Part shown: piece by piece, positions 2,746-61,625 of the stretch | How positions within the stretch are numbered: the first letter of the stretch is position 1 | How the letters are laid out: every line of letters starts with the position of its first letter | Position numbers and translations under genes: made by a program | From: Siphonobacter sp. SORGH_AS_0500 | Lineage (GTDB): Bacteria > Bacteroidota > Bacteroidia > Cytophagales > Spirosomataceae | Direction: 5' to 3' | Length of the DNA: 64,000 nt | Assembly: GCF_002838835.1 (NCBI RefSeq) | Contig: NZ_NHPP01000008.1 | Coordinates: 186,001-250,000 of the forward strand | Notes under the pieces: generated by a model | Databases searched by the model: none | What the model was told of the DNA's origin: nothing | What the model saw: only the letters and a program-made list of their open reading frames with translations

Positions 2746-4188
2746 TTGAAGTACTACTCCTCCTTCCGTTCGCTTCAGCAGGATTTACGCCAAGGCACCA
2801 CTTCCTGCCTTGCCATGGTCGATTATTACCTGAACCGTATTGAAAATCACACTCATCTGAATGCCTTTCTGGACGTTTACGCAGACGATGCCCGTACTCA
2901 GGCCAGTCGTGTAGACGCCAAGCTAGCCGCCGGAACGGCTGGAAAGCTGGCAGGAATGGTCATCGGCATCAAAGACCTACTTTGCTATGCCGATCACGGA
3001 GTACAAGGGGGGAGTAAAATTCTGAACGGATTCGTCTCGCAGTTTACGGCTACCGCCGTGCAACGTCTGTTGGATGCCGATGCAGTGATTATTGGTCGGC
3101 AGAACTGCGACGAATTTGGGATGGGCTCTTCGAACGAAAACTCTGCTTTCGGTCCGGTGCGAAATGCCTTCGATGAAAGTCGGGTACCGGGCGGTTCTTC
3201 GGGTGGGTCTGCCGTTGCCGTTCAGGCCGATTTATGCTTTGCTTCCATTGGTACCGATACGGGTGGTTCGGTTCGGCAGCCTGCTGCCTTTTGCGGAGTA
3301 GTCGGTTTAAAACCAACGTATTCACGTGTATCCCGCTGGGGCCTGTTAGCGTACGCTTCTTCTTTCGATACCATCGGCCCGATTACCCGTTGTGTAGAAG
3401 ATGCTGCCCTGATTCTGGAGGTCATGGCGGGAGCGGATGAGCAGGACAGCACCGTCTCGCAAACCCCGGTTCCTGCGTACTCGGAGAAATTAACTTCGGG
3501 TGGTCTGAGAAAAATTGGCTATTTTCGTGAAAGTATCGATTCAGAAGGAGTAGACGAATCAGTGAAAGCCGTTCTTCGTCAGACCATTGAACGCTTACAG
3601 GCCGAAGGGCATACCTTAGTTCCGATTGATTTTCCGTTGGCTCATTATTACCTGCCAACGTATTATATTCTGACTACGGCTGAAGTAAGCTCCAATCTTT
3701 CCCGTTACGACGGCGTTAGATACGGTTACCGAAGTCCGCAGGCCGTTGATCTGGATTCGCTATACCGACTCAGTCGTACCGAAGGTTTAGGCAGCGAGGC
3801 CCGCAAACGAATTCTGCTGGGGACATTTGTTTTAAGTGCAAATTATTATGACGCTTATTACACGAAAGCACAGCGAGTTCGGCGTTTAATCAAGGAAGAA
3901 ATCGAAAGGCATTTCCAGGAAGTAGATTTTATTCTGTATCCCACCACGCCTTCAGTTGCCTTTCCTTTAGGAGAAAAGTCTTCGGACCCCTTAAAAGAGT
4001 TTCTGGCTGACATCTTTACGGTGCAGGCCAACCTCACGGGCACTCCCGCTATTTCACTTCCGCTGGGAAAAGATAGTCAGGGTTTACCCGTTGGCATTCA
4101 GGTGATAGCCCCTGCCTTTGGCGAAGAACAGTTACTTGCTTTTGCCAAGTCTCTGGAGGGGATTACTGAGCCGCAATTAACGATGTAA
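2746..4188 (+). CDS. gatA: Glutamyl-tRNA(Gln)/aspartyl-tRNA(Asn) amidotransferase subunit A
   Basis: GatA, the amidase subunit of the GatCAB complex, releases ammonia from glutamine for conversion of Glu-tRNA(Gln) to Gln-tRNA(Gln). The 480-residue sequence has the amidase signature family triad: Lys in VIGIKDLLCY (about residue 76), cis-Ser in GGSSGGSAVAV (about 150) and nucleophile Ser in GTDTGGSVRQPAAFCG (about 175). The C-terminal LTGTPAISLPLG and GLPVGIQVIAP blocks are also typical. Length is normal. The start is a TTG (MKYYSSFRSLQQDL), since no ATG or GTG is in frame upstream; this matches the beginning of relatives. gatB and gatC are not in the window, as is usual in this phylum where the genes are scattered. 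Confidence 0.95.
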   Translation: MKYYSSFRSLQQDLRQGTTSCLAMVDYYLNRIENHTHLNAFLDVYADDARTQASRVDAKLAAGTAGKLAGMVIGIKDLLCYADHGVQGGSKILNGFVSQFTATAVQRLLDADAVIIGRQNCDEFGMGSSNENSAFGPVRNAFDESRVPGGSSGGSAVAVQADLCFASIGTDTGGSVRQPAAFCGVVGLKPTYSRVSRWGLLAYASSFDTIGPITRCVEDAALILEVMAGADEQDSTVSQTPVPAYSEKLTSGGLRKIGYFRESIDSEGVDESVKAVLRQTIERLQAEGHTLVPIDFPLAHYYLPTYYILTTAEVSSNLSRYDGVRYGYRSPQAVDLDSLYRLSRTEGLGSEARKRILLGTFVLSANYYDAYYTKAQRVRRLIKEEIERHFQEVDFILYPTTPSVAFPLGEKSSDPLKEFLADIFTVQANLTGTPAISLPLGKDSQGLPVGIQVIAPAFGEEQLLAFAKSLEGITEPQLTM

Positions 4189-39178: not shown

Positions 39179-39190
39179 TGATTATGAGGG

Positions 39191-39237
39191 TGGGCCCTGT
39201 AGGTTTCGAACCTACGACCAATTGATTATGAGTCAAT
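39191..39237 (-). other. tRNA (CAU anticodon) 3'-half fragment, probable att site
   Basis: The minus strand reads a complete anticodon arm (ATTGA-CTCATAA-TCAAT, anticodon CAT), variable loop, T arm (GTAGG-TTCGAAA-CCTAC) and acceptor strand AGGGCCC with discriminator A. The D arm and the GGGCCCT acceptor 5' strand are missing: the sequence beyond 39238 does not fit. Such 3'-half copies arise when a tyrosine integrase inserts an element into a tRNA gene; the integrase gene follows at 39432. Geometry predicts the intact tRNA at the right end of the element, which was not found before 64000. CAU could be Met, fMet or Ile2. Confidence 0.75.
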
Positions 39238-39431
39238 AGTTATCGCTTTCCCAGTGAATCCTACTATTTCCCTGTGTTGCTATAAAAGCACTGAATATCA
39301 GTATTGTAAATAAATTGTTTCCCCGTTCATTCTCATTGATAGCTGATTAATTCTTAGATTTGTTGGTGAGTTTGCTGGTGAGTTATGGGATTTTGAGAAT
39401 AATCTAACCAGCACGATCTAACCAACCATGT

Positions 39432-40796
39432 ATGAATACCACAAAAGCCGAAATCAAGCTTGCCTTTGATCCGTCATCGAATGGGAAGATTTCGGTGAAG
39501 CTTCGAGTCATCTTCCAGCGTGAGAACCGGAAATATTCTTTTCCAATCAAAGGCGGGGTGTTTCTAACCAAGGAAGACTTTGATAAGCTGGTTCGCTGCT
39601 ACGAAGGCGGCTATGGTAAATCTGCTGAGCGGATACGCCATATCTATGACTCGCTAGAGCCTTTCATCAAGAAGGCAAAAGAGGTAGTAGACAAGCTTCC
39701 CGTGTTCTCCTTCGACGTTTTTAAAGAAGCCTTTTATCGAACAGATTCCGTAGTCGAGGACTTCGATAAAACGGACCTCTTACTAGCCATATCCAGAAAA
39801 GCCGATTCTATGCGTAAGCAGGGACGGGTAGGCAATGCTACTGCCTATGACGCCGCAGGAAGATCGTTGGCTCGCTACGTTAGCTCTCTATCTAAAGCGG
39901 ATCGTCAAGACTTAGGGCTGGCTGCTTTGCCAAAGAAGGCCGCTTCTCCTGTCATTACGCTGACTTACAAAGAAGTTACGCCTGAACTATTAGCCGACTA
40001 CGAAGGCTGGATGAAACGGTACGGCAAAAGCTCTCAAAGTCCTTCTGGCAAGCCTAGCCCAGCCTCTTCTACGACTATTGGCATCTACCTGCGTCACGTA
40101 CGCTCGATGTTCAATGATGCTATTGACGACGGTATCATCTCCAAAGATGTGTATCCATTCGGCAAGAAGAGGTATGTGATTCCAGCGGGTAAGAACACGA
40201 AGAAGGCCCTGGATAAAGCAGACATCGATAAGATCATGGCTTATGAGTGTGCCCCTGGGATGGAACAACGGAGCCGTGACTTATGGGCGTTCTCTTACTA
40301 CAGCAATGGCATGAACTTCGCCGATATTCTTCACCTCCGCTGGAAGGACATCGATAAGAAGAAAAATAAGATTGTATTCATTCGCAAGAAGACAGCCAGA
40401 ACCAGAAAGGCAGATCAGTTGAAGATTCAGGCAATGTTGTTTGAGGAAAGCTGGGCCATCATTAAGCGTTGGAAGAATACAGACAACCGGCCTGATGCCT
40501 ACGTATTCCCTTTTCTTGAAGAAACGATGGATGCTATACGCCAAAGAGCTATCATACGCCAGGTCATTAAAGTCACCAATAAGTACATGACCAAGATTGC
40601 CGAGGCAGTAGGGGTGGAGGGTGATGTAAAGACCTATGCAGCCCGGCATTCATTTGCCACGATCCTGCTTCGCTCAGAGGCTCCCATTGCCTTTATCTCA
40701 CAGTCACTAGGGCATGCGAACATCGCCACGACGGAAGCATATTTAGGTAGCTTTGATGACGAGAAAACCAAGAAGTATTTAGAAGCGTTAATGTAA
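39432..40796 (+). CDS. Tyrosine recombinase (phage-type integrase)
   Basis: A 454-residue site-specific integrase. N-terminal arm-binding/SAM-like part (about 1-230), including FKEAFYRTDSVVEDF and a core-binding helical domain. Catalytic part (about 255-454): SYYSNGMNFADILHLRWKDID at the place of the first Arg box (the usual Arg is not obvious, as in IntDOT-type Bacteroidota enzymes), AARHSFATILLR with the H-x-x-R pair, LGHANI and the nucleophile Tyr in TEAYLGSF. It lies 195 bases from the tRNA fragment and points into the element, the normal arrangement. First gene of the putative satellite. Confidence 0.92.
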   Translation: MNTTKAEIKLAFDPSSNGKISVKLRVIFQRENRKYSFPIKGGVFLTKEDFDKLVRCYEGGYGKSAERIRHIYDSLEPFIKKAKEVVDKLPVFSFDVFKEAFYRTDSVVEDFDKTDLLLAISRKADSMRKQGRVGNATAYDAAGRSLARYVSSLSKADRQDLGLAALPKKAASPVITLTYKEVTPELLADYEGWMKRYGKSSQSPSGKPSPASSTTIGIYLRHVRSMFNDAIDDGIISKDVYPFGKKRYVIPAGKNTKKALDKADIDKIMAYECAPGMEQRSRDLWAFSYYSNGMNFADILHLRWKDIDKKKNKIVFIRKKTARTRKADQLKIQAMLFEESWAIIKRWKNTDNRPDAYVFPFLEETMDAIRQRAIIRQVIKVTNKYMTKIAEAVGVEGDVKTYAARHSFATILLRSEAPIAFISQSLGHANIATTEAYLGSFDDEKTKKYLEALM

Positions 40797-55711: not shown

Positions 55712-56254
55712 GGGTAGGCAAAAAATTAGAGCTTTAGCCAATTAGTAAAGCAATATATCCTTGATTATTGAAGTAAAAAACACTCAATCTATATTATCAA
55801 TCAATGATTTAAATTCATAGTACTGATAATCAGCAGTATTTTCTCTGAGTGTACTATATTAGCACCTATTGACTCGCCTCAGTAACATGCATCTTCTTGC
55901 CATACGGCACAGCAATAGCGATCAGGCAGGATAGACAGAGACGGGGGCTTTCCTAAGATCGTACTTCTATGGGCAATTATAGAGGAAATTAGTATAAACG
56001 GCGGTGGAGTGCCTGCATTCATTCTCGCGTGAAAGGGTACCTGTTCAACCCTCCCCGGTAAGGAAAAGCGTCTGACCTACCCCCGGGGTGTTGGGTGGAG
56101 GATTTTCATAGTACAGTGCATTAGATAGCTAACCCAGATTATATTTTTGGCAACCGACTGATTATCAACGTTGTGAGGAAAAATCACAACGGGTGTCTGC
56201 ATCTTCATCATTACAGTGGACTATATAGCTAAATAGATCGCTAGGCAGATTAGA
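55712..56254. other. Spacer with repeat block A copy 2 and junction motifs
   Basis: About 540 bases. It carries repeat block A copy 2 (56016-56106), the TAGATAGCTAACCC motif (56119-56136) and ACTATATAGCTAA (56220-56231). A short minus-strand frame ending IAVPYGKKMHVTEASQ (about 55870-55930) looks protein-like but has no start. A palindromic CTGATAATCAG lies at about 55830. Confidence 0.5.
56016..56106. repeat. Spacer repeat block A, copy 2
   Basis: Partner of 28032-28130. The junction motif follows directly at 56119, whereas in copy 1 a 127-residue gene lies between the two. Confidence 0.8.
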
Positions 56255-56500
56255 CTAGCGGGCGAATTCCAAAGCGACGTCTTCATGCATCCATGTTCCG
56301 CCTGTATGCTGACCTCTCTCGGTTATAATCCAATTACCATTATTTCTGGTATTTGACAATTCGGCAATATAGGCTCTAGTAGAAGCCAATGACAGCCAGT
56401 CATTAGGACGTTTCCCAAACGGCTTAGCCATTTCAGTAGCATTCACCATTAATTCGCCTGACTCAGTGCGAAAAGTTACCTTACTGTTTTGATACTCTAA
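56255..56500 (-). pseudogene. KilA-N domain fragment
   Basis: The minus strand encodes EYQNSKVTFRTESGELMVNA, TEMAKPFGKRPNDWL, GQHTGGTWMHEDVALEFAR, the KilA-N DNA-binding domain of phage antirepressors, then stops where the family continues with WLSP. No start codon precedes EYQN; an internal ATG (56449) would give 64 residues. The piece is cut at both ends and lies between two ACTATATAGCTA motifs (56220 and 56513). Confidence 0.7.
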
Positions 56501-56508
56501 CCTGCATA

Positions 56509-56625
56509 GCGGACTATATAGCTACCTGTCCGTTCGCTTCGCTCACAGCCAGCAGACTCTTTATAGGTGATTCGGATTATCTATAACGTGGGATTATCCC
56601 ATCTTTTGTAAAAGGTAACTCTGTC
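56509..56625. repeat. Spacer repeat block B, copy 2
   Basis: Partner of 28651-28765, with the TATAGGTGAT-TCGG-ATTATCTATA hairpin (10 bp with two G-U pairs) and the TGGGA/TCCCA hairpin. Similarity stops after AAAGGTAACTCTG, so the last three hairpins of copy 1 are missing. Confidence 0.82.
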
Positions 56626-59937: not shown

Positions 59938-60020
59938 GTGCAAGTAAAGTCGGCATTATGGCAATGCTTTCTTAGAGATGTAGATCACGCCACTGAAGGA
60001 TTCTCAAGTTATAGAGTAAA

Positions 60021-60040
60021 ATGTTCGCAATAGCGAACAT
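60021..60040. promoter_or_regulatory. Perfect 20-bp palindrome, operator candidate
   Basis: ATGTTCGC-AATA-GCGAACAT. Symmetry and length fit an operator for a dimeric phage-type or stress repressor. It lies 50 bases upstream of the RNA promoter and about 150 bases upstream of the divergent lipoprotein gene. Confidence 0.6.
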
Positions 60041-60089: not shown

Positions 60090-60119
60090 TTGACATTTTG
60101 TTCTTCTCTTGTATTTTAG
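60090..60119 (+). promoter_or_regulatory. Bacteroidota-type promoter for the structured RNA
   Basis: TTG (60090-60092), 19-base spacer, TATTTTAG (60112-60119; one mismatch to TAnnTTTG). Start predicted near 60125, just at the 5' strand of the RNA's closing stem. Confidence 0.65.
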
Positions 60120-60122
60120 CAG

Positions 60123-60303
60123 TGTCTAAGTTTCAATAGCGGGTAGCAATGCCCAACATATAGTTGTAGGGCTTACATTTGTGCCTGATAGTCATTTCTG
60201 TGTCTATACGCAGCGGTGTTCTACCTGCCGTGCATCTCCTGTTATGGTTGATGCAAGCCCGTTATTGGACTTAGACAGCGGCAAGGGGAACACCGCTGTT
60301 TTT
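60123..60303 (+). ncRNA. Structured non-coding RNA candidate, about 180 nt
   Basis: The 5' end TGTCTAAGT..CAATAGCGGG (60123-60143) pairs with CCCGTTATTGGACTTAGACA (60258-60277), closing the molecule. Inside are GCCC-AAC/GTT-GGGC (60151-60172) and GCATC/GATGC (60232-60254) hairpins. The 3' end is a terminator, ACAGCGG/CCGCTGT then five T. A second option is visible: CAGCGGTGTTC (60211-60221) is perfectly complementary to GAACACCGCTG (60288-60298), which would break the terminator. Length and closed-stem layout resemble 6S RNA, but I cannot assign a family. The integrase gene starts 140 bases later. Confidence 0.65.
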
Positions 60304-60443
60304 ATTGTACCTCTTCTTCTAAAACACAGGAGTCATGATTAACTAAACTTCCTTCCAAAAATCACAATTAAGTATCTTTTACACAGCCGGACAAATATCT
60401 GATTGCAAGAATTCTATTGTCTAAACAAAAACCACATACCATC

Positions 60444-61625
60444 ATGATCAACAAATTTCATTTCGCCTACCATCTGCGTACTGAAGGCATTTCTGAACAA
60501 GGTCTGCCCATTATTTATGCCAAAGCGACTTTAAATGGCAATCGTATTAATATTGGCTCAACGGGCATTCGGGTATCATTAGATAACTGGGATATCCAAA
60601 GACGCCGGATCCGACTATCGGATACCATTTCGATGATGGATAATGCCAAGCTTGATTCTTTGGAAAGTCAGGTAAGGTCCGTAATTCTGTATGCCGAATC
60701 CCGTCAGGAACGGGTCACCCCGGAGCAGTTAAAGAAGGCTCTGCGTCCTGCTTCCGCTCGTCAAACGGACGTATTTACACTACTGGATAAATACCTAGAA
60801 TGGTCAGAACAGATGAGTCAGAAAGGGGATCACGCAATTAGTACCCATAAGACCCGCAAGGAGAAGCTAGCTTTAGTAAAATACTTCCTAGAGGAAGAAA
60901 AGAAGACTAAGCTTCTGGTCGAGGAGATAAACAGGGTCATTATGGAGCGTTTTATTAATTACATGCTACTCAAACGTAACGCTAAAAAAGTCTACGCCCA
61001 GAAGTGCCAGCAGTTCATAAAGACCTTCGTGATTTGGTGTTGGGAAAATGGACATATTGACATTAACCCGCTGGACAACTACAAAGTCAAGGTAGACAAA
61101 ACACCTAATTTGGAACACCTCTCTGAAGCAGAGCTTACGCTACTGACGACAACGGTGTTTCCTAAACGCCTCCAAGAGACCGTTGATTGTTACCTGTTTG
61201 CGTGCAATACCGGGTTAGCCTACGTAGATATGAAGCTTTTGAATGAATCCAACGTAGTTGAGGTAGGGGGTAGATTGTACTTACAAGGGGCACGTGAGAA
61301 AACAGATACGAAGTATTTCGTTCCACTGTCAAAAGTAGCTCAAGCTATCATTGTCAAATATGGCGGAGTCTCTAAACTCCCATTACGATCCAACAAAGAA
61401 GTTAACTGCATGCTCAAAGTCGCTATGGCCCAAATTGGTGTCAATAGAAGAATCTGGTTTCATACAGGTCGAAAGACCTTTGCTATGCGGATGCAGAATG
61501 AGTTCCTACGTTCGGATGAGACCACAGCCGCCATGTTGGGCCATAAATCAACTAAAGAGCTAAAAACCTATCGCAACATTACCAAAGAGCGGGTTATTAA
61601 AGAAATGAGCAATTTCGACTTTTAA
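60444..61625 (+). CDS. Second tyrosine recombinase (SAM-like integrase)
   Basis: A 393-residue integrase from the ATG at 60444 (MINKFHFAYHLRTEGISEQG); a TTG 27 bases earlier is possible. N-terminal arm-binding domain with ATLNGNRINIGSTGIRVSLDNWD, then a SAM-like core-binding domain (about 105-200) and the catalytic domain: CNTGLAYVDMKLL (first Arg replaced by Ala as in many Bacteroidota enzymes), FHTGRKTFAMRM (H-x-x-R), LGHKS, and the nucleophile Tyr in LKTYRNIT. It borders the immunity-like array on its right, as the XerD-like recombinase does in acquired defence arrays. It may alternatively belong to an unrelated mobile element further right. Confidence 0.9.
   Translation: MINKFHFAYHLRTEGISEQGLPIIYAKATLNGNRINIGSTGIRVSLDNWDIQRRRIRLSDTISMMDNAKLDSLESQVRSVILYAESRQERVTPEQLKKALRPASARQTDVFTLLDKYLEWSEQMSQKGDHAISTHKTRKEKLALVKYFLEEEKKTKLLVEEINRVIMERFINYMLLKRNAKKVYAQKCQQFIKTFVIWCWENGHIDINPLDNYKVKVDKTPNLEHLSEAELTLLTTTVFPKRLQETVDCYLFACNTGLAYVDMKLLNESNVVEVGGRLYLQGAREKTDTKYFVPLSKVAQAIIVKYGGVSKLPLRSNKEVNCMLKVAMAQIGVNRRIWFHTGRKTFAMRMQNEFLRSDETTAAMLGHKSTKELKTYRNITKERVIKEMSNFDF

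Follow-up and report, generated by a model that had tools for sequence, protein, structure and literature searches.

A probable antirepressor-silencing RNA family of Bacteroidota phages and its likely orphan copy beside an integrase gene

Antirepressors tip temperate phages towards lysis. The c4 RNA of P1/P7 (RF01695) is a structured phage RNA against the antirepressor mRNA with segments complementary to its start region, and the a1b1 motif is a second copy of the c4 target. In PMC12197685, c4 is 77 nt long and blocks ant translation, and the sar RNA of phage P22, another small phage RNA of 68/69 nt, represses antirepressor translation. Both c4 and c4-a1b1 are tabulated in PMC2864571.

Here, we analysed a 64,000-nt stretch of DNA from Siphonobacter sp. 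SORGH_AS_0500 (the window; host genome of 5.08 Mb, 92.6% complete). It carries a structured RNA of about 185 nt at 60119–60303 on the plus strand, one of 35 family members (Table 1). By analogy, its best reading is that it works most like c4, and it is not filed as c4 because the c4 model does not match: RF01695 hit neither the window nor the relatives L095 and L096 (E up to 10), nor 14 further loci at the gathering score. As for two other c4 features, an antirepressor is directly downstream in 24 of the 33 relatives' ORFs but an integrase in the window, and start-region complementarity holds for the relatives as a set but is at the chance level in the window.

The family differs from c4 also in its length, the crossing P1 and P2 pairings, its own U-tract and an early attenuator-like hairpin. 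It resides in Bacteroidota whereas c4 resides in Proteobacteria, and it precedes SymE as well. The sar RNA is alike in being a phage RNA that represses antirepressor translation, homology with it being compared through Rfam only.

We consider it probable that these are phage-borne antisense-type RNAs of Bacteroidota silencing the downstream antirepressor, with the window copy orphaned. From the computed structure, covariation, target complementarity and gene association of the family, we infer that the RNA would be transcribed from its own promoter, and that its 3′ domain (P2, P2′ and P3) would fold and end at the U-tract. P1b would then pair around the translation start of the adjacent downstream gene, in most cases an antirepressor, and block its translation to favour lysogeny, as the c4 RNA does in P1/P7. 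P1a, a look-alike of the target, would compete for P1b; this sequestration of P1b counts against the antisense reading.

Table 1. Features of the window RNA and its surroundings
Feature	Position	Strand	Remark
KilA-N antirepressor fragment	56255–56521	−	PF04383, E 5e-14 on 56258–56452; open frame
Promoter-like site	60090–60119	+	TTG 60090–60092, N19, TATTTTAG 60112–60119; read from the sequence
P1a	60123–60143	+	5′ side of the closing stem; look-alike of the target start in relatives
Attenuator-like segments 1–4	60141–60186	+	1 (GGG), 2 (GCCC, 60151–60154), 3 (GGGC, 60169–60172), 4 (GCC); 2:3 is the T1 hairpin
P2a	60211–60221	+	CAGCGGTGTTC; covaries with P2b in 34 sequences
P2′, 5′ strand	60226–60230	+	partner 60279–60283; UGCCG/CGGCA in the window
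P3 hairpin	60231–60255	+	loop GUUAUG
P1b	60258–60277	+	3′ side of the closing stem; in relatives, the candidate antisense segment
P2b	60288–60298	+	GAACACCGCTG; directly adjoins the U-tract; covaries with P2a
U-tract (T2)	60299–60303	+	as the letters read
Mini-ORF	60335–60346	+	ATG ATT AAC TAA; located where the gene starts in relatives
P1b match	60418–60424	+	TGTCTAA, 7 nt, near the integrase start; duplex not significant
Tyrosine recombinase gene	60444–61625	+	Phage_int_SAM_5 above cut-off, Phage_integrase below

Assembly of the family

Three covariance models were used: R1 built on the window RNA alone with P1 included, R2 of the 3′ domain and R3 of nine sequences. Among 390 genomes of the order, R1 gave a full-length match in two besides its own, each just upstream of AntA (L095 and L096). 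Applied to 73 viral and 55 genome AntA loci, it gave two matches only, which are these same loci by scores and coordinates (listed there as L170 and L171).

Over the phylum (395 genomes), R2 had matches in 62 at E up to 1, of which G548 and G768 (E 1.3e-8 or better) were accepted besides the window; this search contributed one Bro-N locus and one SymE locus. The remaining matches (E 0.0047 and up) were set aside, including G801, which was inspected and not taken. On 67 of the 128 AntA loci, the best R2 score was 15.2 bits and was not accepted.

With an E-value limit of 0.01, R3 had matches in seven of 395 genomes. Four loci, L295–L298 (29.7–30.7 bits), were dropped as plain terminator hairpins by eye, and so was a second match of 16.9 bits in L266. 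In a run including 69 of the 128 AntA loci, L051 alone was accepted at 47.5 bits, and four further matches, none above 22.8 bits, were rejected.

Two motif scans of IMG/VR required GTWATG or GTAATG in the P3 loop, and the relaxed one returned 34 contigs. R3 did not match six of them (L264, L271, L275, L281, L282 and L291), nor L260 from the earlier scan. The family totals 35 with 28 IMG/VR contigs and seven genome loci, the window being counted among the latter; L287 is truncated at its 5′ end. The scans selected on the 3′-domain sequence and were blind to P1, target pairing and downstream gene, so these three serve as separate tests for the scan-derived loci. Several family loci are closely related and thus not independent.

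With the RNA as a blastn query, only short matches turned up besides the own locus. Counting the own genome, 41 of 59 genomes matched at E up to 1; with the limit set to 0.01, 32 of 222 did, the longest match besides the own locus there being 63 bases. A match in G036 was taken for coding DNA on reading, and R1 scored 7.8 bits at best on four other blastn-matched loci. The phage and plasmid collections gave matches of just 28 and 57 bases, and no named phage matched the RNA of L285 or that of L274. A search of open-access literature found no paper on RNA silencing of antirepressors in Bacteroidota phages. PMC8040213 presents thousands of candidates, and an unnamed overlap with this family is possible.

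Two members stand apart in layout. L265 apparently has a second RNA-like core at about 3677–3766, by eye in tandem after the first and before a Bro-N gene. L051, from another genome of the same family, lies at 2726–2880 on the minus strand and adjoins an integrase gene on the opposite strand with no U-tract.

Conserved structure and its two ends

An earlier note on this DNA described a promoter, a closing stem of about 20 bp, inner hairpins and a terminator, and the promoter-like site, stem, hairpins and U-tract are present where it placed them. Its view of a discrete, structured and unassigned RNA is likewise borne out. The fold of 60122–60306 is multibranched at −68.5 kcal/mol with a z of −4.0, and none of 200 shuffles was as good. 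The Rfam covariance search of the window found no match to the RNA, the 6S models included, and the homologues carry compensatory changes.

These changes are strong in both P2 and P3. In an alignment of 34 sequences (L287 left out), 95.0% of the cells pair and double changes occur at 17 of 22 pairs, including each of the nine modelled P2 pairs and of the five P3 pairs. Covariation scores 0.564 compared to 0.163 in shuffled alignments (0/500 as high) and at most 0.114 in slid versions; the alignment was fitted to R3 and includes its nine training sequences, so it leans towards structure. The CCG/CGG of P2′ is invariant in the 34 sequences, hence uninformative. As for P1, the P1a region pairs with its own P1b at a mean of −28.7 kcal/mol and across loci at −12.3, the best of 20000 permutations reaching −16.1. 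The own pairing is the best in 31 of 34 loci, and P1 is weak within the 62 nt tested in L267 (−9.3) and L051 (−13.2 kcal/mol).

The proposed pairing of P2a with P2b exists as 11 bp, and forcing it on 60122–60300 costs little by the model (−68.1 vs −68.5 kcal/mol), being isoenergetic with the minimum. Its ensemble probability is about 0.03 in a model without pseudoknots, and a repeat search extends it to 20-nt arms of 85% complementarity. P1 and P2 cross, so they either form a pseudoknot or exclude each other.

P2 was previously suggested to exclude the terminator stem. It does exclude a short local hairpin, but P2b itself ends at the same U-tract. The anti-terminator reading fails because P2b abuts the U-tract, so this layout would not prevent termination, and P2 is not supported as an anti-terminator. 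The local terminator hairpin is not separable from P2 by covariation, for its CGG/CCG core is almost invariant and 31 of 33 have a standard pair next to it.

At the upstream end, TTG-N19-TATTTTAG is a putative Bacteroidota-type promoter. Of 34 loci, 28 have a TAnnTTTG-like box (at least 5/6) ahead of the RNA, with TTG 17–21 nt upstream, a raw count without shuffled control that has the window in and L287 out. At the downstream end, 34 of 35 members have at least 5 T per 8 nt close to where the RNA ends, L051 being the exception.

An early hairpin, T1, recurs in the relatives. Its segments can pair as 1:2, as 2:3 followed by a U-run (T1) and as 3:4, and the T1-like hairpin with the U-run is found in 29 of 34 loci by our criterion. 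The window is not among the 29, its U-run being degraded (TTACATTTG). When P1a was blocked in the fold model, the average T1 value of 31 loci (the window, L287, L051 and L267 left out) went up from 0.47 to 0.82, with 20 loci rising, 10 staying the same and one falling, under a block that covers part of segment 1 and no shifted-block control. This is only suggestive that P1a occupancy favours T1.

Such an arrangement resembles the antisense-controlled attenuators of the pT181/pIP501 type. There as here, the 1:2 pairing excludes the 2:3 terminator, and antisense binding to segment 1 would by the model favour termination. The putative antisense differs here in being the 3′ part of the same RNA. 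Tentatively, one RNA may thus act in two steps: P1b would silence the neighbouring antirepressor or toxin mRNA, and P1b of the finished copies would bind nascent P1a, free T1 and stop further synthesis. It would be a self-limiting cassette that phages retarget through joint changes in P1 and the start site, a scheme we regard as possible and rather doubtful.

Downstream genes and target complementarity

The first ATG to open a long frame lies 6–46 nt past the model match in 31 of the 34 relatives, with L284 (68), L051 (68) and L265 (111) farther away. By our tally, 24 of 33 downstream ORFs match an antirepressor-type Pfam family (Bro-N, AntA, KilA-N, Rha, P22_AR_N or ANT). Over the 33 ORFs, the overlapping counts are Bro-N 14, ANT 8, AntA 3, KilA-N 3, Rha 2, SymE 2 and P22_AR_N 1, and there are two further weak single matches; in L258, Bro-N scores under the curated cut-off. 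Seven ORFs had no Pfam match (L273, L266, L280, L270, L290, L287 and L267), and five of these, searched against PHROG, had none there either.

The two SymE-preceding members, L294 and L299, are in one genome, G768, and recall the SymE/SymR type I toxin-antitoxin. SymR is encoded on the strand opposite SymE, whereas here the RNA is upstream on the same strand.

Taken as a set, the relatives show complementarity between P1b and the start region of the downstream gene. The duplex of P1b with the own start region averages −14.3 kcal/mol compared to −8.1 across loci, matched by none of 20000 permutations (32 relatives; the window, L287 and L051 left out). The longest exact complementary run averages 8.1 nt compared to 5.4, again with 0/20000 (34 relatives). 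L095 has an exact run of 13 nt and L096, L263 and L290 have one of 12 nt each, whereas the runs of L265 (4 nt), L287 (5 nt) and L051 (5 nt) are short.

Of the 32 P1b segments, 18 pair better with their own target than with any other, and for the remaining 14 between 1 and 23 foreign targets do equally well, in some loci because the ORF choice cut the start region short. By our count, loops or bulges break up 24 of the 32 duplexes.

The same pairing could be read in another geometry, with the RNA as a cis-acting 5′ leader of the downstream gene. Read-through transcripts would choose between P1a–P1b with the start free and P1b–start with it blocked, T1 and T2 being attenuators. The shared strand, the promoter-like box upstream, the short spacing to the start codon, the two terminator-like sites and the competing pairings are all consistent with it. 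However, the terminator-like U-tract in nearly all members suggests a separate transcript, and a leader has no known ligand or trigger here. We regard such a leader as possible yet the less likely arrangement, not fully exclusive of the antisense one.

If the antisense silencing holds, a portable RNA module placed before several antirepressor families and SymE would be a directly testable control point of lysogeny in Bacteroidota phages.

The window copy beside an integrase gene

The window copy retains P1, P2, P3, the promoter-like site and the U-tract, and has lost the U-run of T1. With the partner gene missing, it is most likely an orphan copy, and the mini-ORF may mark where the lost gene stood. 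AntA was not found in the own genome, at its 92.6% completeness. Probably orphaned, the RNA may be a relic or act in trans on related incoming phages; in the latter case, orphan copies could serve as immunity factors.

The locus itself appears on a 28.4-kb IMG/VR contig, identical over the 2401 bases compared. Upstream of it, the window encodes a tape-measure protein and a second integrase. Relatives of the integrase were none in the genome contigs and one locus of the same sequence in the viral contigs.

The earlier note had seen the layout of a switch or attenuator upstream of the integrase, or of a 6S-like RNA. In another reading, the RNA would now control the integrase through P1b pairing with TGTCTAA, which overlaps a possible alternative in-frame start (TTG at 60417), and the pairing segment is the one used in the relatives. 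However, 12% of 2000 shuffles pair as well as this duplex (−9.7 kcal/mol), which is the chance level, and the site is 114 nt past the U-tract. Chance also accounts for P1b at the canonical spot in the window (50% of shuffles as good) and over the whole downstream stretch (51%). At one or no mismatch, the own genome has 15 P1b-complement sites, one being P1b itself, compared to 54 for the reversed control.

The same-genus homologues argue against this reading as well. Blastn homology of the window with L065 stops at 59993 and resumes at 60429, leaving the RNA-bearing stretch without a counterpart, and neither R1 nor R3 matched L065–L068, which have other DNA there. The usual partner of the family is the antirepressor, though L051 does adjoin an integrase. 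Control of the integrase thus appears improbable. A 6S-like RNA binding RNA polymerase, for which the length and the closing stem speak, is very unlikely, as RF00013 matched none of 59 genomes, RF01685 passed its cut-off in none with weak matches in three, neither matched at the window and the fold is multibranched.

In L065, L066 and L068, a lipoprotein-like gene is upstream of the integrase by eye. L065 (1720–2023) and L066 (1648–1946) have an intact 70–71-aa ORF ahead of it, with one copy of a palindrome-like or repeated site before the ORF and another before the integrase. The ORF looks like a small regulator with operators, and that of L065 has no Pfam match.

Several other elements surround the RNA. 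Upstream of its promoter, an inverted repeat ATGTTCGC-AATA-GCGAACAT at 60021–60040 may be either operator-like or a minus-strand terminator. Repeats of TAGCTATATAGTCC at 56218–56231 and 56511–56524 flank the KilA-N fragment and are possibly a recombination site. This string has four genome sites at one or no mismatch compared to none for the reversed control, and by eye L065 and L066 carry it too, over 1 kb ahead of the integrase. Farther upstream, at 39189–40796, a tRNA-Met adjoins the second tyrosine integrase gene, likely marking an attachment site.
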